Below are positions 9,604 to 27,835 of a stretch of DNA of 64,000 nucleotides, in pieces; position 1 is the stretch's first letter, and each line of letters begins with the position of its first letter. This DNA is from Nitrospira sp. GTDB lineage: Bacteria > Nitrospirota > Nitrospiria > Nitrospirales > Nitrospiraceae. The stretch spans positions 806,001-870,000 of the forward strand of contig BQWY01000001.1 of NCBI GenBank assembly GCA_036984305.1, read 5' to 3'. The translations under genes were made by a program, and so were the position numbers. Under the pieces are notes generated by a model. That model did no database searches. It was given only the letters and a program-made list of their open reading frames with translations, and was not told the origin of the DNA.

Positions 9604-9645
9604 GGTCGAGGCCGCAACGGCCTTCCCAAAGTAAGGAGACTGTCC

Positions 9646-10693: not shown

Positions 10694-10746
10694 CAATAAC
10701 ACGTCCGAGTGGTTTGTCTACAGGTGTGCATAGATAGGAGGCCAGC

Positions 10747-11829: not shown

Positions 11830-11875
11830 GAGTGCCAGATACCTGTTCATGGACTGTGAGAGGGAGGTAGATGAC

Positions 11876-13057
11876 ATGAAGATCGGCATGTGGGTGGCCA
11901 CAGTGTTCTGTGGGATGTGCCTCACTGTGTTCGGTTGCGCTCGCGAAAAGCCGCCGGTAGATGGTGCCGCCGGCGCAATAGCAGCTTCCACTGACACATC
12001 GGCGCCTGCACAGGTGGAGCCGAAGCCAGGAGAATCACCTGGCGAGCCCGTTCAAGAGCGCGGGCTAACCTTGTCCTCGAGCGGCCTCACGACGCCTCTC
12101 ATGCTCACGCCTGTTCCCACGGTCGTGCCGAACCCCCCAGCCTTTGGGACGCTGCCGGGAGAGTTTGCCATACGTTCATACCTTCAAAACACGCCGTGGA
12201 CCGCTCGCGATGGAGGCCATCACAGTATCGACGCCGTCATTACAGTGCCGTCGGTAATCGGACCGAACCAACGGTTCAAGCTCGCGTCGGTGCAGCCGGA
12301 TTTCACGACGATCCAAACCAGCGGCGGGTACTACGTAAGCGCCGTCGATGGACTTGGCGGGCCGCCAAATGTGACGCAACCGGTTCAAACGGAACTGCGA
12401 ACGCCGCAAAACGATATCGCTCTCTTCAGGGTGGATGGTCCGAGTGCGGCGGGAACCTTTACAGTCAAGAGCTACGGCGGACATTTTCTTACGGCGCTAG
12501 GGGGAGGAGGCAAAGCGAACGATGCCTTCCATACCGACGCCACCAAAGCGCAGAGCTGGGAGATGTATTACTTTCTGAAATGCGGCGACCTCGGGACGGG
12601 CTATCAGTACGCGATCAGACCGACTGGAACCGGCAACATTCCCGGGAAGGGTGACTTCGTAAGCTTCCTTACAGCACAGGGCGGCGGAGGGCGGACGACT
12701 CAGGCTATGACGGCTTATAGTGGTTATCAGGCGGCCTCCCGGTTCAAGCTCATCAGGCAATCTAATGGATCATATGCACTGCAGACATCCAACGGCGTGA
12801 ACTATCTGACAGCCGTCAACGGCGGTGGTCTTGCGAGCGGGGACAACCTTCAAACCAACCGCACGCAGGTCCAGGCCTGGGAAACCTTCAAAATCGTGGA
12901 ACAGTCCAATTGTTCCTATACCATTCAGACCGTGAGTGGATTTTACCTGGCGGTTGGGCCGGGATCGTCGACGATCTCGACGCGGATCAGCGATCCCAAT
13001 GCAGCGCCGACGATTGGCTATAACGCCAAGTTCGAATTGATCATGGTGGGCCTCTGA
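11876..13057 (+). CDS. lipoprotein with six fascin-like beta-trefoil repeats (copy 3)
   Basis: 393 aa from the ATG at 11876, chosen for GAGGGAGG upstream; an in-frame ATG at 11849 would place nine extra residues before the signal. Lipobox L-T-V-F-G-C, modified Cys21. The acidic linker contains V-Q-E-R-G-L. Six trefoil repeats follow, with repeat 1 the most divergent and repeats 3 and 5 keeping Y/F-L-T-A-L/V-x-G-G-G and W-E-x-F. K-C-G-D-L-G-T-G marks the middle. It begins the second trefoil-lnt-A-B module. Confidence 0.85.
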   Translation: MKIGMWVATVFCGMCLTVFGCAREKPPVDGAAGAIAASTDTSAPAQVEPKPGESPGEPVQERGLTLSSSGLTTPLMLTPVPTVVPNPPAFGTLPGEFAIRSYLQNTPWTARDGGHHSIDAVITVPSVIGPNQRFKLASVQPDFTTIQTSGGYYVSAVDGLGGPPNVTQPVQTELRTPQNDIALFRVDGPSAAGTFTVKSYGGHFLTALGGGGKANDAFHTDATKAQSWEMYYFLKCGDLGTGYQYAIRPTGTGNIPGKGDFVSFLTAQGGGGRTTQAMTAYSGYQAASRFKLIRQSNGSYALQTSNGVNYLTAVNGGGLASGDNLQTNRTQVQAWETFKIVEQSNCSYTIQTVSGFYLAVGPGSSTISTRISDPNAAPTIGYNAKFELIMVGL

Positions 13058-13271
13058 GGGGCGGTGATGCGATGACGGATTTCTTCGGACTGATCCACTC
13101 GTGGCGGGGGCAATGTGCATCACGTCTGCGACGCGTCGCCGCATGGTGTGCTGTCGTAGTTGCCAGAGTTAAACCGAACCGATCTGTGATGACCTCTCGC
13201 ATCGTAGGGTGAAAGGCCCCCTCGCGTGGGGCCTACGTGATCAGGAAGCGATTTCACTGGGAGAAGCAGCG

Positions 13272-14885
13272 ATGCTGTCCCCTTTATACGCGGTCCCCTC
13301 CGGCCCGGCAGTTCGTCGATCCCCACCCGCCGCTCAGAACATGGCCAAACTCGGTCTGGCGCTATTGACGTCCGTATTGTTGACATGTTCCTTGCCACCG
13401 TTCGATTGGGGATGGATTGCTTGGGTTGCTCTAGTGCCGCTGCTGGTAGCCTGCCATGGCTCCACTGCCGCCCAGGCGACGGGACTAGGCTTTCTGAGCG
13501 GCTTCGGAGCGGTGTGCGGCGCCTTGAGTTGGATCTTCGAGGTGCCGGCATTTGGCATCCACCATTTCCTGTTGTTGGGGGGCTACCTTGCGCTCTATCC
13601 CGCCCTCTGGTGTCTGGGACTCGCTTATTTAAAGCGGTTCGACATCGTGACCGCCATTCCACCGGCTGCGTTGTGGGTGATCCTCGACTATGTGCGTGCG
13701 CACGCCGGATTTCTGGCCTTCCCTTGGGGAACCCTCGCTCATACGCAACACGATCATCTCGCGGTGCTGCAGGTGGCGACCGTGACCGGCGAATATGGGG
13801 TCACGTTTTTGGTGGTGCTTGGCAGCACCGCGATTGCTGGGATCATCACTCGGCGAGCCCGGGTCAGCGCAATTGTCGCCCTGCTCCTCATCGGGCTTGT
13901 TCATTCAACGGGCATCCTCGCGCTAAACACCGGGCATGCCGAACGAACGCTCCGAGTGGCCGCCGTCCAGCCGAGTATTCCGGTCGGGGGGCACGCGACA
14001 GGAGCAGATCGCCTTGTCAACTTCCGTCTCCTCGAACGGCTGACCGTTGCCGCAGCCGTTTCACACCCATCACTGATTGCCTGGCCGGAGACAGCCATTG
14101 CCGGAAACCTGCGGGCAGACCCGTTGCTGGCGTCTGACCTGCAGGCGATTGTTCAGGAGCTTGGGGTGCCGCTCGTTCTCGGAGTCTCAGAGGTCGAAAA
14201 GTTCGCTGCACGCGACCACCTCGGCGAGATTCGACGACGGGCCTATAATTCTGCCTATTTCTTCTCACCGAATGCAGCGCTGTCCGCTCCTTACCATAAG
14301 CGGTACCTTCTCCCGTTTGGTGAGTATGCACCCTTTGAGGGTATGGTGACTTGGCCAGCTTGGGTCGGCGGACGTGGCTATGACCGAGTTGCGGGCGAGG
14401 GGCCGCGAGTATTTGCGCTGCCCGATGGCACTCCGTTCTCGACACTGATCTGTTGGGAAAGCTTGTTCAGCGATCTGAGCCGAGAATCGGTGATGGCAGG
14501 CGCTCGTTTGCTCGTGCAATTGAACAACCCCGCCTGGTTTGGCCATAGCGCAGCCGGCGCCCAGCAAAATCTTTCGTCCGTGCTTCGGGCCGTCGAAAAC
14601 CGCGTGCCTATTGTGGTTGCCTCTAATACGGGTCCGTCGCAAGTCATTGATCCGCATGGCCGAATCGTGGCGAGCAGTTCGAGCATTTTTACCGTCGACA
14701 TGGTCGCAGGACAGGTGCCGCTCGGCGAGAGTGGGACCGTTTACACAAGGATGGGCGATGTGTTCGTGTGGGGCCTGGTCGCCTTGGTCAGCCTGGCGGC
14801 TTGGCCTGGTTTGGCTTGGAATCGGATGACTCTATGGGCCCTCAAATGGCATCGTCAGCGTTCTTTGGAACAGCCGCTAAATTGA
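13272..14885 (+). CDS. lnt: apolipoprotein N-acyltransferase paralogue 2
   Basis: 537 aa from the ATG at 13272 (GGGAGAAG upstream), exactly the length of copy 1; upstream in-frame starts reach 13209. Transmembrane N-terminal half, nitrilase-type domain, and the triad motifs A-W-P-E-T, Y-H-K-R-Y-L-L-P-F-G-E and L-I-C-W-E-S are all intact. The opening L-L-T-C-S-L-P-P ... G-W-I-A-W-V-A-L-V-P-L is closely similar to copy 1. It follows a beta-trefoil lipoprotein and abuts gene A. Both copies look active, so this is unlikely to be a decaying duplicate. Confidence 0.92.
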   Translation: MLSPLYAVPSGPAVRRSPPAAQNMAKLGLALLTSVLLTCSLPPFDWGWIAWVALVPLLVACHGSTAAQATGLGFLSGFGAVCGALSWIFEVPAFGIHHFLLLGGYLALYPALWCLGLAYLKRFDIVTAIPPAALWVILDYVRAHAGFLAFPWGTLAHTQHDHLAVLQVATVTGEYGVTFLVVLGSTAIAGIITRRARVSAIVALLLIGLVHSTGILALNTGHAERTLRVAAVQPSIPVGGHATGADRLVNFRLLERLTVAAAVSHPSLIAWPETAIAGNLRADPLLASDLQAIVQELGVPLVLGVSEVEKFAARDHLGEIRRRAYNSAYFFSPNAALSAPYHKRYLLPFGEYAPFEGMVTWPAWVGGRGYDRVAGEGPRVFALPDGTPFSTLICWESLFSDLSRESVMAGARLLVQLNNPAWFGHSAAGAQQNLSSVLRAVENRVPIVVASNTGPSQVIDPHGRIVASSSSIFTVDMVAGQVPLGESGTVYTRMGDVFVWGLVALVSLAAWPGLAWNRMTLWALKWHRQRSLEQPLN

Positions 14886-14897
14886 ATGGAGGTTGCC

Positions 14898-15524
14898 ATG
14901 CGACACCATTTGTCCGCAGTAGTGGTGCTGGCCGGGCTCATCGTCACGGCTGTGTCGCCGTCCTCCGTATTAGCATCGGGCATTCTCCTGCCTCCAACGG
15001 ATCCGTGCTTGAACAAGGCACCTCAAAACGTGAATTTCTCGAAAGTGCCGCGCACCTATATATTTACTGGCACCTGCAACCTCATGCAGACGCGTCTGGC
15101 CGTGAATGTCGATGTGCCTTGGACTGGCGTCGGCACCTATGACCCTGCGACTGGCAAGGCGGCGGAAGACATCATTGTGCCGCCGCCCACCATTTCTCAG
15201 CCATCCCGGCCATACGGGCGCTTCCTCGCCACGATGCACTGTGCGGCCGATCCCTGGTTAGATGCGAATGTAAAATGCGACCAGGTGGTCGCGTCGTCGA
15301 ATCCTCCAGCCAATGCCTATCCCCCCAATGCGTACGGGCGCTATGCCGCCGGCGTCGTGACTCAAGTGATTGCCGCGATCTCGTCGGCTAGGCGGCCGTA
15401 TACGGCACAAATGAATGACAGTAACCGACAGCAAATCATGGCGCAGTACCAGTCTTTCCGCATTCAAGAAGGCATGAGAAATGCGGAACGCTCAAAGCAG
15501 CTTCGCCCCGCCTTCAAGCCATGA
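14898..15524 (+). CDS. exported protein A of the trefoil-lnt-A-B module
   Basis: 208 aa from the ATG at 14898, with AATGGAGG upstream; an ATG at 14886 is also possible. The signal peptide ends V-L-A-S. Features shared with the A part of the fusion at 3280 are a G-T-C-N-L segment, a P-W before the linker and M-H-C-A-A-D-P-W. The C-terminal region is helical and Gln/Arg-rich (R-Q-Q-I-M-A-Q-Y), matching Q-Q-L-L-Q-Q-Y-L in the fusion. No known family recognised. It starts 13 bases after lnt copy 2 ends. Confidence 0.75.
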   Translation: MRHHLSAVVVLAGLIVTAVSPSSVLASGILLPPTDPCLNKAPQNVNFSKVPRTYIFTGTCNLMQTRLAVNVDVPWTGVGTYDPATGKAAEDIIVPPPTISQPSRPYGRFLATMHCAADPWLDANVKCDQVVASSNPPANAYPPNAYGRYAAGVVTQVIAAISSARRPYTAQMNDSNRQQIMAQYQSFRIQEGMRNAERSKQLRPAFKP

Positions 15525-15533
15525 AGGTTTCCG

Positions 15534-16295
15534 ATGATCAGGATGCGGTTCAGACAGAGATCCTCTCAGAGAATGCCGCTTGATTTGACTCTAGGAAGGG
15601 GCGTAGCGCGGACTGGCTGTTACTGGCTTGTTGCTCTATGGCCGGTGGTCTTTGCCTTCAGCAGCATGGCGATGGATGCGGGAAATCAGGAAAGTGTGAT
15701 GACCGCGGTCCAGTTGAATCGGCCGCTCTATGTGCGAACGGGCTCAGATGAGCCGGTGCTGCTGCCACGGGGCTCCTATGCCGTCATGTTCCACGACGAT
15801 CGCCACCTCCGGGTCGTGACGCAGGGAGCGGAGTCGGTGATCGTGGACGCTGTGGTCGCTCGCCACGATCAGGACCTCGAACACCCATTCGCGCTGGCCA
15901 TGGAGGATCCACAGACCCACGATCTGACTCACATCCTGTTGCTCTTGCCTGACGGGCGCGCTCTCGAAGCGACGGGGAGTGCCACTGGCGCGTTCCCGCG
16001 CGAAATTCCGGTGCACATCTTTGCAGCCCTCGCCAAGCAATGGGCAGCAGGCTCGCCGGTTAAGGAAGGCCTTCGCGTTGAAACCAAAACCATTCGCGCA
16101 GGACAGGATTACGACGTGGTGGTTTTGCCGTCGGGAATCTGCGCCGTTCTGTGCGAACGTGACGACCGGTGCCGGGCCTTTTCATGGCGACCACGGGTGA
16201 CTAAACCGACGACCGGAGCCTGTCATTTGCTAGAGACGGTGCCGCCGAAACAGTCCGACGAGTGCTGTGTGTCGGGAATGAAAGTAAGGCATTGA
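15534..16295 (+). CDS. exported protein B with a C-terminal PAN/Apple-like domain
   Basis: 253 aa. An N-terminal Arg-rich stretch and a hydrophobic segment (about 28-47) are followed by the B domain (about 55-160) with R-P-L-Y-V-R-T, H-P-F-A-L-A-M and L-L-L-P-D-G-R-A, paralogous to the C-terminal part of the fusion at 3280. The last ~70 residues carry I-C-A-V-L-C, D-D-R-C-R-A-F-S-W, A-C-H-L-L and C-C-V-S-G-M-K. This is the spacing of a PAN_4/Apple domain, which usually mediates protein or carbohydrate binding outside the cell. It begins 9 bases after gene A. The PAN domain is absent from the fusion copy. Confidence 0.78.
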   Translation: MIRMRFRQRSSQRMPLDLTLGRGVARTGCYWLVALWPVVFAFSSMAMDAGNQESVMTAVQLNRPLYVRTGSDEPVLLPRGSYAVMFHDDRHLRVVTQGAESVIVDAVVARHDQDLEHPFALAMEDPQTHDLTHILLLLPDGRALEATGSATGAFPREIPVHIFAALAKQWAAGSPVKEGLRVETKTIRAGQDYDVVVLPSGICAVLCERDDRCRAFSWRPRVTKPTTGACHLLETVPPKQSDECCVSGMKVRH

Positions 16296-16775
16296 GGTCG
16301 AGCGAAATGTTATCCCGTGCGCGGTTGACGGCGGGCAGCGACCCTGTCAATAGCCAAGCCGTACACCGCGCGCCGTCCCTTGTTGGCGTGTTCTGCTGCA
16401 TAGCAGCCGCTCGCTCCAGGAGGATCCGTGCCGATTCCCGATCCGATTATTCCGAGGTGCAGATTGGATTGGATCAAGCATCCGTTCTTCGACCTTCCCA
16501 ACTGGGTGGGCCCTGTCCGGGTAGTCTACGCGGAGCAGTGGTCGATCAGACGCTGTCTCGCGCCCCACGTGTGGGTGATGACGGTGACAGGTCATGACAG
16601 CGACGTGGTCTCGAGTCATCGACACGGGTCAGGTTCTAATCGGACTTGTGTCGCCGCAGATCTCATGTGCCGATGAGTTCGAGGGAACGTGCGATGACCG
16701 CGCGTCAGGCTATGGGGGCCCTATGCGGTCGTGGGTTTGGTTCCTTGTCGCCACGCCACAGAGAGGAGCAGACAT
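16296..16775 (+). other. 480-base stretch without a convincing gene
   Basis: A ribosome-site-like AGGAGG near 16420 precedes a GTG opening an 82-codon frame that ends at 16676. The frame has no signal peptide, no recognisable domain and an odd residue mix, so I do not call it. GAGAGGAGC near 16761 is the ribosome site of the next gene. Confidence 0.4.
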
Positions 16776-17399
16776 ATGACGTCCAGTCCGGCGGTATTGG
16801 GGATGATGCTCGTCCTGTTCGTCACTCCATTGTTGCGGGCCGACGAGGTGACGGAGCGCGCGGTACCCCCGAACCTCCCTGGAGCGCCAAGCGGTCTGGC
16901 AGGTTATGCATCACTTGAACAACAGGTGGCTGCTCTCCAACAACAGGTCGTGGCCCTTCAGACGCAACTGGCAACCTTGCAGTCGGCCATTCAAGTCACC
17001 CAGGGTGGTGTGACGATTCAAGGATCGACTCTCTCACTGAACGGTCACACGGTGAACGTGCAGGGCCAACAAGGCATCGCCCTGACGTCCGGCGGCCAGC
17101 TTTCCGTGCAGGCGGGGAACGATTTATCCACGTCCGTGGGACGGAGCGCCACCATTCAGATTGGCACGAATGGTGTTGTTCGCACGGGAGCGGCATTCTC
17201 CTTGACGAGCGGAACCACTCTCACCGTGGCGGCAGGAGCGGACATGACGTTGCAGGCCAGCAATCGGCTCACTGCACAGGGAGGAAACGAGACTATCATG
17301 AAAGCCGGCCACCATCTGGACCTTTCGTCGTCCGGAACCTTGGCTGTGCGGTCCTCCGGCAACCTGACGTTAAAAGGCCCAAAAATCCTTAACAACTGA
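16776..17399 (+). CDS. secreted coiled-coil plus beta-helix spike-like protein (copy 1)
   Basis: 207 aa from the ATG at 16776 (GAGAGGAGCA upstream). A signal peptide is followed by V-T-E-R-A-V, a variant of the RG box. Next is a heptad-patterned coiled coil (about 45-85: V-A-A-L-Q-Q-Q-V-V-A-L-Q-T-Q-L) and then about 120 residues of short Gly/Ser/Thr/Val repeats (V-T-I-Q-G, L-S-V-Q-A-G-N, L-T-V-A-A-G-A, L-T-L-K-G). This layout is typical of a trimeric coiled coil capped by a gp5/VgrG-like or left-handed beta-helical stalk. Fold and trimerisation are inferences. The protein at 18087 has the same plan. Confidence 0.72.
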   Translation: MTSSPAVLGMMLVLFVTPLLRADEVTERAVPPNLPGAPSGLAGYASLEQQVAALQQQVVALQTQLATLQSAIQVTQGGVTIQGSTLSLNGHTVNVQGQQGIALTSGGQLSVQAGNDLSTSVGRSATIQIGTNGVVRTGAAFSLTSGTTLTVAAGADMTLQASNRLTAQGGNETIMKAGHHLDLSSSGTLAVRSSGNLTLKGPKILNN

Positions 17400-18086
17400 T
17401 CAGAACACTCGAGGTGAGCACCAGTCTGAGAGAAGTTCACCGATGATTCGCATTGTACTTGGGCCGATTGTCCCATTCTCTACTCGGCCGCGCTTGGTGT
17501 GGCATCCACTGGGATGGTCCCGACATTGAGTCGCGGGGCAGGCAGGCTTGTCCCGCTGGGCTCTCTCTGTACGAAGCGGAGCGAGAAGTGTTCCCGGCCG
17601 AATCGGGGTCAACGAAACGGGCTCGATCCAGTAGGTCAGCCTTGCGCTCTTCCTGTAAAATCCTAAATTGACGATCAGTGGGGCCTGTGGCATAAGTAGT
17701 GGCCGCTACCAGCCATGGAGGCAGGGGCCGATGATCTCTCGCGTGTACGTGGGTCTCATGTGGGCTCGTTTAGGCCTCCTTCCGACTATCTTCTGCGAAC
17801 TGCACAGTGTCGATCCCCCTCGGGAAACAACTCCCTCATTGACGTTTCAATCTGGTATCCATCGCCCTCAGTACCGCTGAACTTTTTTGACAGTTCCACC
17901 GACCCACAGGACACATGCCAGTCGGAATGTGTGGGGGTATGAAAACAACGGATGCGCGATACCCGTATATTCGAGATCACATCGGGAAGAACAAAGCATT
18001 CTAACGCGAACGGGTCGAGGCCAGACGCCGAGTCGGCCATGGTGCAATCGACACTTGGCCTCTTTCGATTCCAAAACGGAGCCCTT
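17400..18086 (+). other. 687-base stretch without a convincing gene
   Basis: This is the longest gap in the locus. An ATG at 17731 has GGAGG-like sequence upstream and opens 49 codons with a short hydrophobic start, but no family or RG box is visible. Other frames are short. The stretch separates two paralogous spike-like genes and may hold remnants of a third member. No repeats or terminator stem of note. Confidence 0.4.
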
Positions 18087-18614
18087 ATGAATCATGTGAA
18101 GGCAGTGATTGTCGCAGCCCTGGTTGCATCGTGTACTGCCGCACTTGCGGCTGACGGAGTTACAGACCGCGCAGCGCCGGGCCCGGCACAGCCCATGGTT
18201 CCAATACCAGGAGCCCAGGTTCTCCCCTTGACGGTCGAGCAGAGGCTGTCGGCGTTACAGCAGCAGGTGCAAGTGCTCCAAACCCAGGTTGCCGCGCTGC
18301 AATCTGTGCTGAAGGTGACTTCCACCTCGACTACGCTGCAAGGTCCCACTCTGTTCTTGATGAGCACTTCGGGGACGACGATCCAATCTGGCGCCGGGAT
18401 CAACATCAGCTCGGGAGGCAATCTGGCCATTCAGAGTCAGGCGAATGCGTCTCTGAGGGCGGGTGCCGCAGCCGCATTCGAAACGTCAGGGCAATTGGAT
18501 CTGAAGGGAGCCGTCGTGAAACTCAATGGCGGCGGGAAGCCCGTGGCCACTGTTGGCAGTGCGGTTGCGAATGGGAAAATCCTGACGGGAAGCGCGACCA
18601 TTTTGGGAAACTAG
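18087..18614 (+). CDS. secreted coiled-coil plus beta-helix spike-like protein (copy 2)
   Basis: 175 aa from the ATG at 18087. The signal region contains L-V-A-S-C, which could be a lipobox (Cys16), but cleavage after A-L-A is also possible. V-T-D-R-A-A follows at the RG-box position. A coiled coil with L-S-A-L-Q-Q-Q-V-Q-V-L-Q-T-Q-V is followed by Thr/Ser/Gly-rich beta repeats (T-T-L-Q-G, I-N-I-S-S-G-G-N, L-D-L-K-G-A) and an I-L-T-G-S-A-T-I-L-G-N end similar to the P-K-I-L-N-N end of the 16776 protein. It is shorter by about 30 residues in the beta region. Confidence 0.7.
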   Translation: MNHVKAVIVAALVASCTAALAADGVTDRAAPGPAQPMVPIPGAQVLPLTVEQRLSALQQQVQVLQTQVAALQSVLKVTSTSTTLQGPTLFLMSTSGTTIQSGAGINISSGGNLAIQSQANASLRAGAAAAFETSGQLDLKGAVVKLNGGGKPVATVGSAVANGKILTGSATILGN

Positions 18615-18704
18615 ACCTGTGACACTTCGTAATGCCGCTGCCCAGGGTGGATAAAGTCATGACGATAACGACGTGCGCTTCCTGGGTCGTCCGAAGGAGG
18701 GTAT

Positions 18705-19739
18705 ATGGCACCCACATTGGTTCGACTGGTCATAGTCGTGGCACTTCTTGCCGCCGTGTCTGTGGCGCGCGTTTTCTCCGAACAAACGGAGGGAGAGGTG
18801 GGATCCAGAGGGTTCGGCCTTCCTCCGGTTCCGCCGCCGGCCATGTACCAACTCACCATCCATGTGAGCGGAGATGGGAATGGATCGGTGCCCTTGCCGC
18901 CGGCCGTCCTGTGCCCGCCTGCGTGTACCAGACAGTATCCTGTTGGAACCCCGATCGTGCTCGCGCCGGTTCCTTCCCCAGGCTCCGTATTCGCCGGATG
19001 GGCTGGCGATTGCCAGGGGAACGGACCCTGTACACTGACCATGACCGGCTCCCGAACCATCGAGGTGAAGTTCACGAAGCTTCCGGTCCCGGGTGCAACC
19101 GGACCGTCACAATGGTCGACGTGGAGTCAGGCTGCTGCAGCCGCTGCCCGACAGGAAGCGGTCAAATGGTTGGCAGGCAGCTATGTGGATGGGGCGATGT
19201 GCAAGGTCACTGGAGCCATTACGACGGCCCCCGGGGGAGTGCTCAAGAGTCGGTATGCCTTTGCGGGGTTGGTGAGATCGGCGTTGGTACAAGCCGGTGC
19301 TCCTGTCACGATCGCGCAAAACTGGGATCTCGCATTCAAGAGTGCATGGGACATCTGGGCTACGCACACGACGATCCCCGGGTTGCCGTGGTATCCGGCG
19401 CTTGGGGCATGGCCGGGAGCCGTGGCTCCCCCGACGGCGAATACACCGTCTCCGTTGTCCACACTTGTTTCGGGTGGAATTGCGGCGATGTCTCCCGGAT
19501 CTCTGGCCACGGCAATACAGACAAAAGTGGGGTCACAGGCAACGAGTCCCGGCGCCGCAGCCGCGATCAACGGTTTTGCGAATGAGTTGGCGGCCCGTTT
19601 CGCGCAATGCCAGGCAACGTGCCAGGTGCTCAATGTGATGGCGACCGGCAAGGTGCCCAACTATGCTCCCCCCCGGGTGCCTGCTGGTGCGGTGATCGGT
19701 ACTTGCTCGGGGGGCGTCGTGGCGGTGAGCGGATTCTAG
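18705..19739 (+). CDS. exported protein with an InlB-type bacterial repeat
   Basis: 344 aa, ATG preceded by AAGGAGGG. Signal peptide about 1-25, then S-R-G-F near a Pro-rich linker. Residues about 48-128 match the divergent InlB/bacterial-repeat pattern: G-D-G-N-G-S-V, C-P-P-A-C, Y-P-V-G-T, A-P-V-P-S-P-G-S-V-F-A-G-W-A-G-D-C, a G-P-C-T-L-T-M-T turn, and V-K-F closing the strand. The remaining ~215 residues are Ala/Gly/Pro-rich with W-S-T-W-S-Q and a C-Q-A-T-C pair, and I recognise no family there. A surface or envelope role is likely. Confidence 0.7.
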   Translation: MAPTLVRLVIVVALLAAVSVARVFSEQTEGEVGSRGFGLPPVPPPAMYQLTIHVSGDGNGSVPLPPAVLCPPACTRQYPVGTPIVLAPVPSPGSVFAGWAGDCQGNGPCTLTMTGSRTIEVKFTKLPVPGATGPSQWSTWSQAAAAAARQEAVKWLAGSYVDGAMCKVTGAITTAPGGVLKSRYAFAGLVRSALVQAGAPVTIAQNWDLAFKSAWDIWATHTTIPGLPWYPALGAWPGAVAPPTANTPSPLSTLVSGGIAAMSPGSLATAIQTKVGSQATSPGAAAAINGFANELAARFAQCQATCQVLNVMATGKVPNYAPPRVPAGAVIGTCSGGVVAVSGF

Positions 19740-19824
19740 GATCCGCCCACCGCGGACCACGCCGAGTGGACCGTGACTGCGCTCACCTTGCTCGATCGGG
19801 GGCTGTTGATAGGGAGGTATCTCC

Positions 19825-20511
19825 ATGCCAATTCGGGCGACTGGTGTGTTCAAGACCTGGACACAGCTGCTTTTTACCGTAGCACTGTTGTGTCTGCATG
19901 AAAGGCCTAACCCTGCCCTGGCTGCAGAATTTACTACGCCGACTTTTGGGGGAGGGGGTGGGACTCAGGCCTACAATTTGGATTGTGGCTCTGGAGCCGT
20001 CATGGTTGGAGTGATGTCCAAGAGCGGGTTCTGGCTGGACGCGGTTGGCATCATCTGCCAGAGCGTGAATGCCCAGAATGGAACTCTCGGAGAGACTTTT
20101 ACCAGAGGGACGGTCGGAGGTTCCGGGGGCCAGGCCAAATCCACACAATGCATCCCTGGCGGAGTGATTCAGAGGATCGTTGTCGGGGCGGGGCAGTATG
20201 TCGAATTAGGAACCATCTTTTGCCGAGAATGGCTGTCTCTTCAGAAGAAACCTCGGTTTTCGACCGATAGATGCCAGGCTGGCACGTGCACGAGTTTTGG
20301 TAATCTCAATTCGATGGCGCAAAGGAAGGCCCGTTCTTCTGCCCGGATGGGAAAGCCGGGAAGGCCTTTCGAGGAAGACACGGGGTCTATATCGATTCGC
20401 TTCGATTCGTCTGTGACGATTGGAGCAAGTAAGTCCATGGATTACTCGTTGGACCGGTTTCAAACTCTGATCGCTGGGACCTACGGTTTTATAGCGATGT
20501 TGCCGCGTTGA
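19825..20511 (+). CDS. exported jacalin-like (GGSGG) protein
   Basis: 228 aa. Signal peptide about 1-33 (A-L-A-A). The mature region has F-G-G-G-G-G-T, L-D-C-G-S-G-A-V-M-V-G-V, S-G-F-W-L-D-A-V-G-I-I-C, V-G-G-S-G-G-Q, C-I-P-G-G-V-I and G-Q-Y-V-E-L-G-T-I-F-C. Alternating glycine turns and W-L-D-A are typical of jacalin-like lectin domains in bacterial secreted proteins. The last ~80 residues are Arg/Ser-rich and unassigned. Sugar binding is inferred. The stop overlaps the region just upstream of the next gene. Confidence 0.65.
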   Translation: MPIRATGVFKTWTQLLFTVALLCLHERPNPALAAEFTTPTFGGGGGTQAYNLDCGSGAVMVGVMSKSGFWLDAVGIICQSVNAQNGTLGETFTRGTVGGSGGQAKSTQCIPGGVIQRIVVGAGQYVELGTIFCREWLSLQKKPRFSTDRCQAGTCTSFGNLNSMAQRKARSSARMGKPGRPFEEDTGSISIRFDSSVTIGASKSMDYSLDRFQTLIAGTYGFIAMLPR

Positions 20512-20582
20512 AGGACAGCAGGACGCGGATTCATCTCGTACGTCTGGATTGGAAACGAACGCCTGAAGGAGGGGCGTATCTG

Positions 20583-21302
20583 TTGTTTGGTCAAATCAAT
20601 CCAACGAAGGCCCTCTCGTTGTTGTATCCACTGCTGGCGGTTGGCACCGTGGTGGTAGCCGCCTGTGTCGAGCCGAGGTCAAGTCATGAATTGACGGCTG
20701 GAGCGAAAACTCACTCTGGCCCCGTCTCGCTCGAAGCGGCGGGGGCCTCAGAATGCACACACGACGATACACGCCCTGCGTGCCACGTCCAATCAAGAGG
20801 ATTGGGTTTTACCATCCGGCCCTCGGACCCGAATCTGAACCCGTATATGTGCCTCACCCCGAAGCTCGCGGGCACGAAAGGTGCCGAGTATGAACGAGTG
20901 ATGCTCACACCTTGTACAATCAACTCCGATTGGATCTACGACCTCGTGACCCCATCCGGCGCTGAGAATGCTCAATTTTCTATCAGGCATCTCAAGAGTG
21001 GGAGGTGTCTGTACGTGGAGGGAGGGGAGCTGCGCCTTCGCCCCTGTACGAGGGATCGGCAGACGTTTTGGGGCGACCAGCCGGTATACGAATTTCCTGG
21101 GGCCTACCAAGACAAGCATTTCATTCAGGTGGTTCCAAAGATGTTTGGTCCACAATACCGCCGATATTGTATCGGGCGTGAGGTGAGCCCTCTGCCCAAT
21201 TCGAATCCTGAGATTCCAAGCTACGGTGTCAAGGTCGCCGTACAGTGCCCGATGAAGGCGGAGGAGATGTGGCCGTTTCTGTGGGCGTATAAGATCAACT
21301 GA
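20583..21302 (+). CDS. lipoprotein with a ricin-like beta-trefoil region
   Basis: 239 aa from a TTG at 20583, chosen because AAGGAGG lies 10 bases upstream and the lipobox V-V-V-A-A-C then falls at residue 28. An upstream TTG at 20508 would overlap the preceding stop. The mature protein has paired cysteines and repeats like Y-M-C-L-T-P, F-S-I-R-H-L-K-S-G-R-C-L-Y-V-E-G-G and L-R-L-R-P-C. These resemble the Q-x-W / C-L-x-V-x-G units of ricin-type beta-trefoils, with K-S-G-R-C-L-Y-V the clearest. The assignment is approximate. Confidence 0.65.
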   Translation: MFGQINPTKALSLLYPLLAVGTVVVAACVEPRSSHELTAGAKTHSGPVSLEAAGASECTHDDTRPACHVQSRGLGFTIRPSDPNLNPYMCLTPKLAGTKGAEYERVMLTPCTINSDWIYDLVTPSGAENAQFSIRHLKSGRCLYVEGGELRLRPCTRDRQTFWGDQPVYEFPGAYQDKHFIQVVPKMFGPQYRRYCIGREVSPLPNSNPEIPSYGVKVAVQCPMKAEEMWPFLWAYKIN

Positions 21303-21395
21303 CGGTTCATGGCTGTGGCTCTTATGACGCAGAGGGGCGAATCGCCAGTGCGACGCTGGCCGAGACAGGTCATTCAATCCGCAGGAGGCAAAACG

Positions 21396-21914
21396 ATGAA
21401 GGTTCTCCCGGCAGTCGTATTCGTCTTTGGGATGGCTCTGCTTGCGCAAGGTGGGATAGCAGGGAATGAGGACAATGGGTCATTGGGTAGCGCGCGGTTC
21501 CCGAGCTCGATGCTCGTAGCGGGAAACGCGGTACAGCCAGGTGGGAGAAGTCTGGGTATGACTCCTCCTCCAGGCCAAAGTCAGCCGTTGACTCCAAGCG
21601 ATCCGGCTCCATGGCTCGAAGGGCCAAAGACGGCGTTGGAAAAGTGGCTTCTGTTGGAGGTTCAACGACTGTCGAACGCCGTGACTCAACTCCAAGCCCA
21701 ACAGAACTCGCTGCAGGCCTCACATGTCAACCATCAACACCCGTACATCGATACGAATCTCGTATTCGGTCAATTATTCACAGTCGCCGGCTTTCGCGCC
21801 TATCTCGAAAACAATCAGCACAATTTTGATCAGTACCAGTTCTTTGTCTACCAGCCAAATACTATTAGTACGATTGGGAGCACTCATAACAAGGTTACTG
21901 ACAAACCCAAATAA
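21396..21914 (+). CDS. small exported protein, unknown
   Basis: 172 aa from the ATG at 21396 with CAGGAGG upstream. Signal peptide about 1-21. A Pro/Gly-rich linker is followed by a helical segment about 78-105 (W-L-L-L-E-V-Q-R-L-S-N-A-V-T-Q-L-Q-A-Q-Q) likely to form a short coiled coil, then an Asn/His/Gln-rich end with H-V-N-H-Q-H-P and Y-Q-F-F-V-Y-Q. No family recognised and no RG box. The C-terminal third has lower GC and more Asn and Gln than its neighbours. Confidence 0.6.
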   Translation: MKVLPAVVFVFGMALLAQGGIAGNEDNGSLGSARFPSSMLVAGNAVQPGGRSLGMTPPPGQSQPLTPSDPAPWLEGPKTALEKWLLLEVQRLSNAVTQLQAQQNSLQASHVNHQHPYIDTNLVFGQLFTVAGFRAYLENNQHNFDQYQFFVYQPNTISTIGSTHNKVTDKPK

Positions 21915-22023
21915 GGACAACTTGACATGTTGCGCAGATGATGACGTCGGATGCTGACCTCCGATCATACCTACTGCCGAAATGAGCGATACAACAACTC
22001 TGGATAGTAGGGAGGTGAACATA

Positions 22024-22653
22024 ATGCCGGTATTTTTTAGGAACCAACGGGTGAGAGTGCCATCGAATGTGCGGCGCGTTTCTTCTCAAGCTTCGAGACA
22101 ACCCATTCCGGTGTTCCGGGCGCAGGGGACCGCTTTGCAACCAGCCGTCTCGAACCGGCTACCCGTGATTCAAGGTATGGGATCGGCAGCCAGGGCAGCC
22201 TTGCTCAAACAGGCGCTGAACTATGACGGCGCCGGCCAGCCCTATGCCGTCTTGACTCCCGGTAATCCTGTCACGTCCAACAAAGGCTCCCTGGTATTCG
22301 TCGGGGCGGAGGTGATCGATAGTGGGATCAAGCTGGCACGATACCCAGGGAGTCAAAACGGAACAGGCCGACAGATGCTGTGGATCAGAGCGGACGCCAA
22401 CAGGCAGTATCTGGTGGACTGCATCGTTGGCACGTACTACGTGCCTTCGAACTTTAGAATCGAGGGACCGGGTGTCGCGCAAACGGTCTATTCCTCGTTT
22501 GCGGATGATATGGGAAACAAACAACTCAACGGCATCGCGACGGACCACGCGCAGTTCGTCCTTCAAGCGGTCAATTCGGCCTGGTATGGGTTTGCCGTGT
22601 GGAATACCAGCGTCACATGGTTTTTCTTTTCCTGTGAAGTGACGCAACTATAG
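22024..22653 (+). CDS. unknown protein without obvious signal peptide
   Basis: 209 aa from the ATG at 22024 (GGGAGGTG upstream). The N-terminus is Arg/Gln/Pro-rich and not hydrophobic, unlike nearly all neighbours. The C-terminal ~120 residues form a beta-rich domain with Y-A-V-L-T-P-G-N-P, S-L-V-F-V-G-A, Y-L-V-D-C-I-V-G-T-Y-Y-V and a W-F-F-F-S-C end. Family not recognised. It may be a partner exported by another route or a cytosolic component. Confidence 0.6.
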   Translation: MPVFFRNQRVRVPSNVRRVSSQASRQPIPVFRAQGTALQPAVSNRLPVIQGMGSAARAALLKQALNYDGAGQPYAVLTPGNPVTSNKGSLVFVGAEVIDSGIKLARYPGSQNGTGRQMLWIRADANRQYLVDCIVGTYYVPSNFRIEGPGVAQTVYSSFADDMGNKQLNGIATDHAQFVLQAVNSAWYGFAVWNTSVTWFFFSCEVTQL

Positions 22654-22708
22654 TCATGTTGGGACTCTTGGTGGACTATCGCCCGAAACGGTTTTTGAGG
22701 GGGAGACT

Positions 22709-23881
22709 ATGATCGCTGGCAATGAAGGTCGTGGGAGGATCGTCCTCTTGGCGGTGTGTCTGTGGGCCACAAGTGTCCTGGCTCAAACAGTCGATGCCGC
22801 TCTAGCGGAGAGGCGCAGTCAGTCGATGATCGTCCCAGGTCAGGAAGGTGGGGAGGTGTTTTCCATGCCGGCTCTAACGTCGTCGAAACAAAGCGGAGGC
22901 GAGCCGCATTCCACACATGGACTGTTCGCAGCACAAAGGGTTGCTCCCAACCAACCTACCCCCTCGTCTCCATTGTCTGTTTCCGAGCTGACTCCAGAAA
23001 GAGTTCGCGAACTGGAACAGCAAAGGGATCAGATCCGAAGAGGTGCTCCGTCGCAACGTATCGAAGACTTGCGGAATCAGCTTCTCTCCCAAGAGAAGAT
23101 GAACTTGCAACAGAACAATGCACTCTTGATGAATGCCGCAAATTTGCTTAAGTCGATCCAGATTTCTCCCGTGCCGGATCCATGCCAGAAGCCTCAGGTC
23201 TCATCTACAGCGGTCACGCTACCCATCGAGCCGCACGAGGAAGTCATACTCAATGGTTGCGGGTTCGGAGACCAGCGTGGAGAACTTCGATTGGAAGGCA
23301 ATGCTTTTCCTTCAGGACATGTGAAATTGGAGATCATCACATGGACACGAAAAGCGATTCATGCTCGCGTGCCTGCACTGAAAGGTGTCTCCAATGTACC
23401 TAATTCTATAATGCGTATTGTGCGAAAGGACCTGGTTTTCGGAGATCCGTTCAACATGCCGTTTAAGGCCACAGTCGACTGTCAGTTGATTCCTCCCCAT
23501 CGGGTCAATGTGGTCTGTGCCGAGCCCGGGGCGTGCGTAAAGGCGGAAGACCTTTCGAAAAAGTACTTCGATGGACCCAAAAAGCACTTTACCGATGCCA
23601 GTTTTGGCGCATGGCACAATCGCGCGCAAATCTACACCTTCGGGGCGGATAAGGCCATGGTGAACTTAGGAAATGGATGGGTCTTGCAGGGCATGGATTA
23701 TGGCTGGGAGGACGGTGGGCCGACGCCAGGCGCTACGAATGTGATCGTAGGCCTTCCCGGCGGGTTTCAGATGCATGCTACTTCGTTCACCATCACCATG
23801 CCGTGGAAGAGTTGGAATAAGGGCGAGGCGGTCTATGGGACCAAGCTTTTGGCTTGTGGACCGTGGGGTCTTCCGTTTTAG
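22709..23881 (+). CDS. exported protein with coiled coil and IPT/TIG-like domain
   Basis: 390 aa, GGGGGAG before the ATG. Signal peptide about 1-25 (V-L-A-Q). Residues about 92-145 form a charged coiled coil (R-V-R-E-L-E-Q-Q-R-D-Q-I). This leads into an IPT/TIG-like beta sandwich (about 165-225: P-H-E-E-V-I-L-N-G-C-G-F-G, L-R-L-E-G, W-T-R-K-A-I-H-A-R-V-P). The C-terminal ~140 residues have W-V-L-Q-G-M-D-Y-G-W-E-D and W-K-S-W, unassigned. An extracellular structural or binding role is likely. It is the last large exported protein before the radical SAM trio. Confidence 0.68.
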   Translation: MIAGNEGRGRIVLLAVCLWATSVLAQTVDAALAERRSQSMIVPGQEGGEVFSMPALTSSKQSGGEPHSTHGLFAAQRVAPNQPTPSSPLSVSELTPERVRELEQQRDQIRRGAPSQRIEDLRNQLLSQEKMNLQQNNALLMNAANLLKSIQISPVPDPCQKPQVSSTAVTLPIEPHEEVILNGCGFGDQRGELRLEGNAFPSGHVKLEIITWTRKAIHARVPALKGVSNVPNSIMRIVRKDLVFGDPFNMPFKATVDCQLIPPHRVNVVCAEPGACVKAEDLSKKYFDGPKKHFTDASFGAWHNRAQIYTFGADKAMVNLGNGWVLQGMDYGWEDGGPTPGATNVIVGLPGGFQMHATSFTITMPWKSWNKGEAVYGTKLLACGPWGLPF

Positions 23882-23960: not shown

Positions 23961-24251
23961 ATGAGACACATTGTCGCGCTCGCGACTTCAGCTGCAGGTG
24001 GTTCTTCCGGTCCAGCGCCCCAGCAGTGGGAGCAACTCGACCATCTGCCGAATCGGCGCAAACTTGTAGCCCTACAAGATGGACGAATCCTCGAAATTGA
24101 AGGAAACACGGCCAGCCTGTTTCATATTGAACCGGCCCCCGACGGGGTCTACCACTTGGCGCGATCGGGTCAACTCGTCGTTACTCAGGGGCTGTTGAAG
24201 CAGATCCTCGGATCGCCAGTCTCCGACGTTGGTTTTTCCAACGTTCCGTAG
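23961..24251 (+). CDS. short polypeptide 1 upstream of radical SAM gene
   Basis: 96 aa from the ATG at 23961, preceded by GAGGAGG. The start is M-R-H-I-V-A-L-A-T-S-A-A-G-G; no clear signal peptide. Its C-terminal half aligns with the next small protein: L-V-A-L-Q-D-G-R-I-L-E-I, then A-P-D-G-V-Y-H-L-A-R-S-G-Q-L-V-V-T-Q-G. No family recognised. The position directly before a radical SAM/SPASM gene suggests a possible substrate, as in RiPP-type clusters, but there is no Cys, and a precursor role is inference only. Confidence 0.65.
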   Translation: MRHIVALATSAAGGSSGPAPQQWEQLDHLPNRRKLVALQDGRILEIEGNTASLFHIEPAPDGVYHLARSGQLVVTQGLLKQILGSPVSDVGFSNVP

Positions 24252-24265
24252 AGGAGGAAGCTGCC

Positions 24266-24544
24266 ATGAACGTGACACGCCGAACGATCATCAAGTCCGC
24301 CCTCGCTTCCGCACTGGCGGTTGCCACCACCGAGTCTCTCTTGAGCGCAGCGGAGCGGAGCGCTTCTCCCAATGAACGATACCTTCTGGTCGCGCTTCGG
24401 AATGGAAATTACCTTGCGATAGATCGGGTGGGACCGAAGAGAGCCTTTCTCCTGACCCGCGGGCCTGCTCAAGACGGCGAGTATCTGGTCGCGCCTTCGG
24501 GCCGAGTGAGGATCCAGCGGGGAGTTCCAGCGATATTCCCGTGA
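24266..24544 (+). CDS. short polypeptide 2 with Tat-like signal
   Basis: 92 aa, ATG preceded by GAGGAGGAAG. The N-terminus has V-T-R-R-T-I-I-K then an Ala/Leu-rich stretch, a twin-arginine type export signal (Arg5-Arg6). The rest, L-V-A-L-R-N-G-N-Y-L-A-I ... A-Q-D-G-E-Y-L-V-A-P-S-G-R-V-R-I-Q-R-G, is paralogous to polypeptide 1. The stop codon TGA overlaps a GTG (24541) in the radical SAM frame, so translation is probably coupled. A Tat signal on so small a protein suggests export after folding or modification in the cytoplasm. Confidence 0.7.
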   Translation: MNVTRRTIIKSALASALAVATTESLLSAAERSASPNERYLLVALRNGNYLAIDRVGPKRAFLLTRGPAQDGEYLVAPSGRVRIQRGVPAIFP

Positions 24545-24591
24545 AAGGGGGACGCTGTGGCGATCGTGTCGACAAGAGGCGAGGGGGATCT

Positions 24592-25761
24592 ATGTGGGGC
24601 ATGACCTGGACGGTGAAAGTATCAAAGCTCTGCAACCTTCGGTGCCGCTACTGTTACGAATGGAATGATCTCGACAATCCCATCCGTCTCACGTTTTCGG
24701 AATGGACGAAGGTATTGATCGCCATTGCAGAGCAACACAATCGACAAGCGTCTCGATTCGGAGAGCGGGGAAGGTCGTACATTGTCTGGCACGGAGGGGA
24801 ACCGTTGCTGTTGTCTCCCGGGTATTTTGAGGATGTGATCCGACTCCAGCGTGAGATCCTGCCGGCGGGGTGTCTGTGGCGTGGAGACATTCGCAACGTA
24901 CTGCAAACCAATCTGTACAAGCTGCAGGACGAGCATCTGGAGATGCTCGAGCGACAGCGATTCGAGATTGTGGTCTCGCTCGACGACGTCCCCGGAGTTC
25001 GCGTCACTGCGGCGGGCGTGGACTCCCAAGGGACCGTATTGGCCAATCTCGCGCGAGTGCTGGAACGGCAGATTCCCGTGACGGGGGCGGTGGTGCTGGC
25101 GAGTCATACGAAGGGGCGGCTCATGGACATCTACCGCCAGTTCAGACAGTGGAACGTTCCTTTTCGGGTCAACCCTATTACGCCGGCGCCTCCTTCTGCG
25201 CCGATCTCGGGGCTCATGCTATCGGAAGCCGAAATGACCGATGCGCTCGGTGAGCTGTTTGTGTATTGGTTAGATTCTGGCGCAGCGCTATGGGTCGAGC
25301 CGCTTTTCAGCGCCCTGCAGACAGTCCTGCTTCGCATGACCGGTCTGGAACGACGTCCTTATCGCCGGCGGCAGGACGGCGACAGCCGGATTATTGTCGA
25401 TACCGACGGCACGCTCTATGCGTCGTTGGATCGCTATGTGGTCGGCCACGCAATGGGCAACATCTTTACACAACCGCTGGTCGATATCATAGAGGGGAGC
25501 GCGTATGAAGCCTCGCTCCAGCGCGAAGAGCAGCGCGTACAGATACGCTGCGCGTCTTGTCATTATCAGGGCCCATGCAATAGCATTCCTCTCACTCAAT
25601 CGTCCTACGAGGCACGGCAGGAAGGTTGTGGCGTCTATGCGGGGCTCTGCCGGTTTATTGAATCCTTTCTGAGGGATGACGGCCTGGACGAAAGCGAGCT
25701 CGGGCATCTCATGCCAATTGGCGCGGAAGGCTGGTCGATCAACCCTCTAGTGGCATTGTAA
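24592..25761 (+). CDS. radical SAM enzyme with SPASM-like C-terminal cysteines
   Basis: 389 aa from the ATG at 24592 (GAGGGGG upstream); the frame is open from a GTG at 24541 that overlaps the previous stop. C14-x3-C18-x2-C21 (K-L-C-N-L-R-C-R-Y-C-Y-E) binds the radical SAM [4Fe-4S] cluster. H-G-G-E-P follows at the usual place. Near the C-terminus, G-H-A-M-G-N-I and C-A-S-C-x5-C ... G-C-x5-C resemble the SPASM auxiliary-cluster region of anaerobic sulfatase maturases and peptide-modifying enzymes. It probably modifies a peptide or protein. The two short polypeptides just upstream are the first candidates; the RG-box proteins are others. Confidence 0.85.
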   Translation: MWGMTWTVKVSKLCNLRCRYCYEWNDLDNPIRLTFSEWTKVLIAIAEQHNRQASRFGERGRSYIVWHGGEPLLLSPGYFEDVIRLQREILPAGCLWRGDIRNVLQTNLYKLQDEHLEMLERQRFEIVVSLDDVPGVRVTAAGVDSQGTVLANLARVLERQIPVTGAVVLASHTKGRLMDIYRQFRQWNVPFRVNPITPAPPSAPISGLMLSEAEMTDALGELFVYWLDSGAALWVEPLFSALQTVLLRMTGLERRPYRRRQDGDSRIIVDTDGTLYASLDRYVVGHAMGNIFTQPLVDIIEGSAYEASLQREEQRVQIRCASCHYQGPCNSIPLTQSSYEARQEGCGVYAGLCRFIESFLRDDGLDESELGHLMPIGAEGWSINPLVAL

Positions 25762-26141
25762 AGGCGCCAGGTTGCGAGCGGACATTGCGGATGAGTGTTT
25801 GGCTCGGACAATCTTATCCGTTGCGTGCATCGGCCAGCCAGGTCTGGAGAGGCCCGTGGGTATAAGAACCCAGAGAGGTAGCCCGGAGATGGGTGGAAAC
25901 GCCGCCCGGTAGGACAGAACGATTGCGTCGAGGGTGTAACCAATCCTGTCGAGGGTGAATATCTCCTATCCCCGCTCAACCCATTCACGTCAAGGGGCGG
26001 GGGAATCGGCATAGTGGACCGGTTGCGGACTCCAAGTGGGCCCTCAAGCGTAGGGGTCGATGGACAAGGGGGAGCCCAACCTTGTAGAAATGTGGGCTAC
26101 GAGATAGTTCGTCCTAGTGGACATAAATGGGGGAGGATGCC
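25762..26141 (+). other. 380-base intergenic stretch after the radical SAM gene
   Basis: No gene. A 10-base direct repeat, GTCGAGGGTG, occurs twice near 25927 and 25950. The region separates the secreted-protein locus from the beta-propeller genes and probably contains the promoter of the latter. I cannot identify a clear terminator stem. Confidence 0.4.
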
Positions 26142-27131
26142 ATGGCCTGGGCTCAGCTGCGTCACACCGTGAGTGCGCTCGTGTTGCTTGGATCCGTGGG
26201 GTGCGTCAGCGATTCGGACCCGCTTCCGCCCTTGTCACAGCGCATTTATGTGGCAAATGAAAGCGATAACTCCGTCAGCGTGATCGATGCCGAAACCTAT
26301 AAGGTCATCGGCACTATCGACGCCAAAAACTCGTCCACTCATGATCTGTCGCTGACGCGGGACGGCTCAAAACTATTCGCTACCAACCTTGCCTCGGGGC
26401 GGGTCTCCGTGATGGATACCCGGGCGATGGAAACCATTGCCTCGATCGACACAGGGAACCGAGCGCATGTCGTGACCTTGACGAACGACAACAAGCAGGC
26501 GTGGGTCGCGAACATCGGCGAAGACAATATTTCCATCGTGGATGCGACCACCTACCGTATTCTCGGTACGATCCCGGTCGGCCGAGGGCCGACGGGACTG
26601 GCCTTTTCTCACGACGGACGGTTCGCGTATGTCAGCAATCAGGGCGAGAAATCCATCAAAGTCATCGAGACCGCGTCTCATCAGATTATCAAGTCCATTC
26701 CGGTCGGTACCAACCCCCACTTCTTAATCGTCGATCGCCAGGGCCGCGTCTGGGGGACCAACTCCGGCGAAACGAGCATTTATGTGATCGATCCGGAAAC
26801 CAACGATATTGCGGGTACGTTGGAAGTCGGGGCAAAGCCGCAGCAGATTGCGTTCGGGTACAAAGGTACGAAGGGACCTCTTGCGTATGTGACAGTCGGC
26901 GGTATGGACAAAGTGGCGGTCGTCAATGCCGATCCCGACAATTTAAGAATCATCGAGGAAATTCCGGTGGGTAGCGGGCCCAACGGTATTTGGGCGAATC
27001 TGGAAGGAACTCGTCTCTTCGTCGGACATGACAAGGGAAATGAAGTGCGTATCATCGATACGGGGACCAGTTCGGTGATCAGTACGGTTCCGGTCGGACG
27101 GAAGCCGATTCGAGTTGTGGTGTCGCGATGA
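26142..27131 (+). CDS. YVTN-repeat beta-propeller lipoprotein
   Basis: 329 aa from the ATG at 26142 (GGGGAGGATG upstream). Lipobox L-G-S-V-G-C, lipidated Cys21. The mature part has about seven repeats of the YVTN/YncE type: I-Y-V-A-N-E-S-D-N-S-V-S-V-I-D, L-F-A-T-N-L-A-S-G-R-V-S-V-M-D, A-W-V-A-N-I-G-E-D-N-I-S-I-V-D and I-G-T/S-I-P-V-G. It predicts one seven-bladed propeller anchored to the envelope. Binding partner unknown. It is followed 20 bases later by a FecR-domain gene and probably forms an operon with it. Confidence 0.88.
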   Translation: MAWAQLRHTVSALVLLGSVGCVSDSDPLPPLSQRIYVANESDNSVSVIDAETYKVIGTIDAKNSSTHDLSLTRDGSKLFATNLASGRVSVMDTRAMETIASIDTGNRAHVVTLTNDNKQAWVANIGEDNISIVDATTYRILGTIPVGRGPTGLAFSHDGRFAYVSNQGEKSIKVIETASHQIIKSIPVGTNPHFLIVDRQGRVWGTNSGETSIYVIDPETNDIAGTLEVGAKPQQIAFGYKGTKGPLAYVTVGGMDKVAVVNADPDNLRIIEEIPVGSGPNGIWANLEGTRLFVGHDKGNEVRIIDTGTSSVISTVPVGRKPIRVVVSR

Positions 27132-27151
27132 GGCGCCTGGAGGAGAGGCAC

Positions 27152-27835
27152 ATGAATGCCCAACATCGACTGTGCGAGATGCCGAGACCGTGCACCATCA
27201 CGACAGGAATAGTCCGCGCAGGATTGGCCGGTATTGGTCTGGCCCTGGTTCTCGGATTCGCTCTGCCGATTCCAGTTCCAGCATCTGCCGAAACTGTGCG
27301 GGCGGGGTATGCGGACAGCGCCATCGGTACCTTGGTGATCGTGCGCATTGATGGAGTTCAGGAGCGTTTACAAGGTACCGGTCAAATTCCCCTCTACGAG
27401 GGAGACGTGCTTCGAACGGACGCCGGCAGCCAAGCCGTGGTGAAATTTAAGGAGGGAGTGAAGGTTGCCCTCAATGAGGACACGTCGCTCAAGATTTTGT
27501 CCCGTTGGGTCAAGGACCAACCGCTGACCCGTATCATCCGTATGAGCCGTGGCGAGGTGTGGGTGACCACTCTGGGAGAAGGTCCGTTTCAATTCGAAGT
27601 AGAAACGCCTGTTGCGACCGCAGCGATAGAAGGGACGGAGTTCGATCTCAAGGTTCAGGAGGACGGGCAGAGCATCCTCACCGTCGTGTCCGGTATTGTG
27701 AAGTTCGGCACCGCCTTCGGTACGTGTCCGATCAAGCCGGGGACCATCAGTTACGGTGTTCGCGGCAAGAAGTGCACGAAACCGGTTCCGACGGATGTCA
27801 TGAAATCTCTGGAATGGACCAAGGCCGTGAAATAG
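27152..27835 (+). CDS. exported FecR-domain protein
   Basis: 227 aa from the ATG at 27152 (GGAGGAGAGG upstream). Signal peptide about 17-46 (A-S-A-E). Core FecR-domain motifs are Y-E-G-D-V-L-R-T, V-K-F-K-E-G-V-K-V-A-L-N-E-D-T-S-L-K-I, G-E-V-W-V and V-A-T-A-A-I-E-G-T-E-F-D-L, followed by V-V-S-G-I-V-K-F. No sigma factor or TonB receptor is next to it, so it is unlikely to be a classical iron regulator. In such proteins the domain probably senses or binds envelope components. Confidence 0.85.
   Translation: MNAQHRLCEMPRPCTITTGIVRAGLAGIGLALVLGFALPIPVPASAETVRAGYADSAIGTLVIVRIDGVQERLQGTGQIPLYEGDVLRTDAGSQAVVKFKEGVKVALNEDTSLKILSRWVKDQPLTRIIRMSRGEVWVTTLGEGPFQFEVETPVATAAIEGTEFDLKVQEDGQSILTVVSGIVKFGTAFGTCPIKPGTISYGVRGKKCTKPVPTDVMKSLEWTKAVK

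Follow-up and report, generated by a model that had tools for sequence, protein, structure and literature searches.

Directly before a gene for a radical SAM/SPASM enzyme, the Nitrospira sp. genome carries two short genes, here called P1 and P2 (contig BQWY01000001.1; the 64,000 nucleotides analysed, positions 806,001 to 870,000, are referred to as the window). The question is whether this trio is a RiPP-type modification system and, if so, what the enzyme would do to the small proteins. We consider such a system likely. The genes, the paralogy of P1 and P2, the enzyme clade, the precursor-like neighbours of related enzymes and a common mini-domain are direct observations, and the last three support the RiPP-like interpretation that had been put forward from the sequence alone (the sequence-only reading). 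The features are collected in Table 1.

Table 1. Features of the trio, in window coordinates.
Feature	Position	Strand	Basis and remarks
P1, candidate precursor, 96 aa	23961..24251	+	ORF with strong ribosome-binding site; paralogue of P2; no clear signal peptide; no Cys
P1 Trp23-Glu-Gln triad (aromatic-x-polar), before the domain	24027..24035	+	motif scan
P1 DGxY six-strand mini-domain, residues 33-84	24057..24212	+	profile match to cyanobacterial precursors; AlphaFold strands 34-84
P1 Phe92-Ser-Asn, candidate core triad in disordered C-terminal tail	24234..24242	+	motif scan; residues 86-96 pLDDT below 50
P2, paralogue of P1, 92 aa, Tat-type N-terminus	24266..24544	+	no Cys; no aromatic-x-polar triad
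P2 Tat-type signal, TRRTIIKSALASALAVATTESLLSAA	24266..24352	+	Pfam TAT_signal below cut-off; hydropathy; two TatC genes in genome
P2 DGxY mini-domain, residues 37-87	24374..24526	+	alignment to P1 and cyanobacterial domains; hhalign weak for P2 alone
Radical SAM/SPASM maturase, 389 aa	24592..25761	+	Pfam domains; start set from relatives; open frame reaches back to GTG 24541
CNLRCRYC radical SAM cluster motif (C14, C18, C21)	24631..24654	+	Cys invariant across clade
SPASM Cys C320, C323, C329, C346	25549..25629	+	invariant columns in relatives; alignment to 4k37

The sequence itself confirms P1, P2 and the enzyme frame (24541-25761) at the positions reported earlier. Both small genes start behind strong ribosome-binding sites (GAGGAGGTACCTGTC-ATG for P1, AGAGGAGGAAGCTGCC-ATG for P2). 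As had been noted, the stop codon of P2 is overlapped by a GTG at 24541, but this GTG is probably not used as the enzyme start, since relatives of the enzyme begin at the position equivalent to ATG 24592 or 24601 and GAGGGGGATCT precedes ATG 24592; P2 and the enzyme gene are probably separated by 47 bp and do not overlap. Upstream of the trio (window 7340-23881) lies a run of genes whose products are mostly exported; lectin-like (Ricin B, DUF7910), PAN and DUF2345-like parts occur among them, and several have no Pfam match. Downstream, 366 bp separate the enzyme gene from genes for a YncE-like beta-propeller and a FecR-domain protein (26127-27835).

The proposed paralogy of P1 and P2 is borne out by BLASTP (21 of 53 residues identical, 40%, E = 2e-6) and by a local alignment score of 66; shuffling whole P2 2000 times gave at most 54, and shuffling its mature part 5000 times at most 52. 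The motif earlier ascribed to both proteins holds for L-V-A-L, the following G, D-G-x-Y and S-G, to which a later G can be added, but the final Q residues fall in different columns. Further copies were found neither among the ORFs of the window nor elsewhere in the genome, and the phylum sample, plasmids and the genomes of enzyme relatives gave no credible homologues.

Membership of the enzyme in the radical SAM/SPASM proteins rests on the CxxxCxxC motif and the SPASM domain, both domains scoring above their Pfam cut-offs (Radical_SAM 50.8 bits against 29.5, E = 2.8e-13; SPASM 23.8 bits against 21.5, E = 5.4e-5). The nearest solved structure by sequence is the sulfatase maturase 4k37; on alignment its SPASM Cys other than the four kept by the enzyme (Table 1) have no counterpart, and the enzyme lacks the complete complement of SPASM Cys that two auxiliary clusters would need. 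Comparison with RiPP radical SAM profiles, a check suggested in the sequence-only reading, placed the enzyme below the cut-off of every NCBIfam model. The best match is the peptide maturase DynA (119 bits against 450), followed by the sulfatase maturase model TIGR03942 (92 against 349), DarW (91 against 650), DarE (75 against 650), YhhB (64 against 445), FxsB (59 against 370) and GrrM (47 against 310); DynA is also the best profile match of every clade member tested. Since all scores are below cut-off and DynA ranks first, the enzyme is, as judged by profile comparison, outside all named families yet among peptide maturases.

Within the family the enzyme occurs in one of 175 genomes, that of the window itself, and a phylum sample of 396 genomes contains only remote matches (identity ≤31%). 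A search for the same trio in other genomes, also suggested earlier, did not find it. The restriction of the enzyme, P1 and P2 to the window genome within the family and phylum sample suggests gain by horizontal transfer. A single-protein scan of genome contigs gave no match to the enzyme; among the matches listed from a profile/alignment scan of these contigs are L042 from an Akkermansia-labelled MAG (36%), L043, L045 and L051 from cyanobacteria (about 30%) and L044 from a Myxococcales MAG (29%). Viral contigs contributed L122 (34%) and L123 (30%), both from putatively viral IMG/VR records, and whole-genome cyanobacterial searches added L151-L162 and L164-L167. Verrucomicrobiota-type genomes around L042 yielded, besides L042, generic maturases only, and genomes around the myxobacterial L044 yielded L044 alone. 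On a Pseudomonas paraeruginosa plasmid (L041, NZ_CP029094.1) three tandem radical SAM/SPASM genes adjoin type II secretion/prepilin genes.

A maximum-likelihood tree places the enzyme in a clade of at least 20 rows (support 100/99), drawn from cyanobacteria, the myxobacterial MAG, the Akkermansia-labelled MAG and the two IMG/VR contigs. The window enzyme groups with L042 and L122 (100/99), and this group is sister to cyanobacterial L155-L159, L161 and L162 (92/87). A literature search on the enzyme clade, on radical SAM RiPPs that carry Tat signals and on ChlB found no direct description, and the clade appears to be a so far undescribed group of peptide-modifying radical SAM enzymes that borders on the dynobactin/darobactin and three-residue-cyclophane maturases. 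Membership of a known non-peptide family, which would have spoken against the RiPP-like reading, is not what we find: the enzyme is below every NCBIfam cut-off, its clade is supported and clade members adjoin Nif11 or signal-peptide precursors.

Homologues lacking the small genes were likewise looked for. As in the window, a small gene lies directly upstream of the enzyme at the inspected clade loci, except at L042, where the only upstream candidate is a doubtful 43-aa ORF, and L167, a second enzyme in tandem with L166. Precursors with a Nif11 leader are found at L044 and L045 (NCBIfam TIGR03798, 7e-13 and 2.3e-12), at L123 (Pfam PF07862, 2.6e-5) and, recognised by eye, at L151, L152 and L166; P1 and P2 match no Nif11 model (NCBIfam, Pfam). 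Small proteins with a signal-like N-terminus, assigned by hydropathy for most, are encoded at L043, L051, L122, L153-L162, L164 and L165. The precursors at L043, L045, L051, L154, L160 and L164-L166 have a common SAVDTFxSL-type C-terminal tail, which may be a second recognition element. At L043, L045, L051 and L123 the enzyme is followed by a further common gene, by eye a 2-oxoglutarate/iron oxygenase and with no Pfam match; the window has no counterpart of this putative oxygenase gene. One genome (G721) contains two precursor-enzyme units about 5 kb apart (L156 and L161); in one of their precursors the DGxY domain and the core are duplicated internally.

The signal-peptide precursors of the sister group (L155-L159, L161, L162) contain a P1-like segment; EPAPDGVYHLARSGQLVVTQGLLKQI in P1 resembles IAPDGQYKLSNNLIIEVAQGKVINQAI at L158. 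A profile of P1 and P2 matches the cyanobacterial precursor domain over about 37 columns (hhalign, 87.6%, E = 3.5e-6), a match carried mostly by P1 (79% alone, against 9.9% for P2 alone). Its score of 29.6 was reached by none of 300 column shuffles (best 15.2), and the reversed comparison scored 9.7. A first small profile of the cyanobacterial precursors missed P1 and P2; with a domain-restricted profile P1 was the top real non-family match among 17,671 ORFs, yet with E = 0.33. When P1, P2 and the cyanobacterial domains are aligned, the only columns without variation are the G and Y of DGxY. In AlphaFold models of modest confidence, P1 (residues 33-84) and a fragment of the L157 precursor (pLDDT about 70-80 for the L157 domain) have six strands arranged in a common order. 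Because the alignment behind each model included sequences of the other, the shared predicted fold supports the match but does not prove it independently. The P1 mini-domain is probably a recognition or leader domain. It is covered by no Pfam or NCBIfam model. As cyanobacterial precursors also contain it, P1 and P2 are less isolated than the sequence-only reading supposed.

Foldseek searches of the PDB gave nothing usable for the domain model of P1 or L157. Against viral models the L157 domain matched several uncharacterised phage proteins (probability near 1, E = 1.5e-3 and weaker). In viral contigs the P1/P2 pattern matched once, at EPAPDGEYMLENGSKIMVAAGIITEV, a stretch resembling the P1 domain in a phage ClpP-type (prohead protease-like) protein (L129:3950-4130, IMG/VR 3300032288_004565). 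Because phage proteins contain a similar domain, the mini-domain seems to be a small beta module of general occurrence that was adopted as a precursor domain, and it is therefore not RiPP-specific by itself.

The part that follows the domain is predicted to be disordered in both the P1 and L157 models. In P1 it ends in GFSNVP, which provides a Phe-x-Asn triad in a flexible tail, whereas a motif scan found no aromatic-x-polar triad in P2. The cyanobacterial precursor tails contain Trp triads such as WDQ, WTD, WKD and WSR. In a reduced set of 11 clade precursors, 21 of 24 Trp residues have D/N/Q/E/K/R at i+2 (background 0.357, p = 2e-7, an optimistic value as the precursors are partly related). 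Three-residue cyclophane links have been reported at W-x-N/D/R and F-x-N, the known 3-CyFE sites (PMC11002830), and the Trp-x-polar tails of the clade follow the pattern of such substrates. The enzyme does not reach the cut-off of any named cyclophane maturase model, and cyclophane formation on P1 is put forward tentatively, as somewhat short of an even chance. Thioether chemistry of the sactipeptide or ranthipeptide kind was rejected, because P1 and P2 contain no Cys.

The Tat-type N-terminus described earlier for P2 is present: R5-R6 lie within T-R-R-T-I-I-K and a hydrophobic stretch follows (MNVTRRTIIKSALASALAVATTESLLSAAER). The match to Pfam TAT_signal (E = 0.007, 16.7 bits) is below the 22.7-bit cut-off, and the host genome has two TatC genes. 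The corresponding region of P1 (RHIVALATSAAGG) aligns to the P2 signal but has neither RR nor a long hydrophobic core. Export of P2 through Tat is somewhat more likely than not. A Tat signal would suit such a system well, since the Tat pathway transports proteins that are already folded and complete. Some GrrM-type precursors have signal-like N-termini. Among MNIO RiPPs, signal-peptide precursors are known (PMC12452194).

We propose that the radical SAM/SPASM enzyme would modify P1 and/or P2, the presumed substrates, in the cytoplasm, the DGxY mini-domain acting as the leader that presents the flexible tail. The likeliest chemistry would be a C-C cross-link from aromatic ring to beta-carbon at P1 Phe92-Ser-Asn94 and possibly at Trp23-Glu-Gln25, after which P2, or a P1-P2 pair, would leave through Tat. 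Several observations count against this scheme: the protein with the signal (P2) has no triad and the one with the triads (P1) no clear signal; no genome but that of the window is known to have the trio; the domain match covers about 37 columns and is due mostly to P1; and phage proteins contain a similar domain.

The absence of an aromatic-x-polar triad from P2 also bears on a rather unlikely alternative in which P1 and P2 are the substrates of a different chemistry, such as epimerisation, a change at the C-terminus or in the backbone, or a reaction at the DGxY Tyr of both proteins. The invariance of G and Y in DGxY alone would fit, as would the fact that no clade enzyme reaches a model of named chemistry. 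However, the Tyr is inside a predicted folded domain, DG-x-Y also occurs in the phage protein, where the 8 kb examined showed no enzyme of this kind, and the excess of Trp-x-polar triads among clade precursors suggests the tails as the modified part. P1 and P2 could instead be exported or regulatory partners of an enzyme that acts on another exported protein of the locus, for example one encoded at 20508-23881; the missing P2 triads and the several exported proteins of unknown function in the upstream run would fit this. We regard this as improbable, as the gene directly upstream in the relatives encodes a RiPP precursor, which in one subclade has the P1/P2 domain.

Very improbable is a role of the enzyme in anaerobic sulfatase maturation, with its place beside P1 and P2 an accident. 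TIGR03942 is its second-best NCBIfam model and 4k37 its best solved structure, but the score is far under the cut-off, only four SPASM Cys are left, P1 and P2 have neither Cys nor the C/S-x-P/A-x-R motif, and precursors accompany the clade. The Cys content, the model cut-offs and the missing target motif led us to reject sulfatase maturation. Scarcely credible, too, is that P1 and P2 are gene remnants or ORFs that arose by chance. Their occurrence in a single genome would agree with this; their strong ribosome-binding sites, a paralogy beyond that of shuffles and the match of the domain to precursors argue against it.

Returning to the RiPP-type system, it is possible, although unlikely, that the trio represents a new RiPP class with a folded six-strand DGxY leader and a Tat-exported small-protein product, P1 and P2 being modified partner and exported carrier. 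If true, this would be the first Tat-exported radical SAM-modified RiPP, with a leader domain also found in phage proteins. Independently of this possibility, the trio defines an undescribed maturase clade in which precursors with a Nif11 leader, a Sec-like signal or a Tat-like signal can stand in for one another, and a precursor mini-domain that lies outside Pfam and NCBIfam models.

Among known systems, the anaerobic sulfatase-maturating enzyme 4k37 is the closest solved structure by sequence, whereas the window enzyme is without about half of its SPASM Cys and has no sulfatase partner. Bufferins and other MNIO RiPPs similarly combine a small precursor bearing an export signal with a cytoplasmic modifying enzyme (PMC12452194), but that enzyme is an MNIO and not a radical SAM protein, the chemistry is mostly Cys-based and the signal is Sec, not Tat. 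The dynobactin and darobactin maturases (DynA, DarE, DarW) include the best profile match of the window enzyme and of the clade members tested; unlike those systems, which the enzyme matches far below cut-off, the trio has no matching precursor and no adjoining darobactin-type ABC transporter genes. Triceptide systems (XncB, OscB/GrrM, FxsB, YhhB, XyeB) also have a SPASM-type radical SAM enzyme adjoining a small precursor with aromatic-x-polar triads in its tail, Phe-x-Asn included (PMC11002830); the window enzyme differs in being under all model cut-offs, and its putative precursors in having a beta mini-domain that lacks a family model and, for P2, a Tat-type signal. Although P1 and P2 do not match Nif11, other members of the window enzyme's own clade follow Nif11-leader precursors, as in the Nif11-leader RiPPs of cyanobacteria and myxobacteria.
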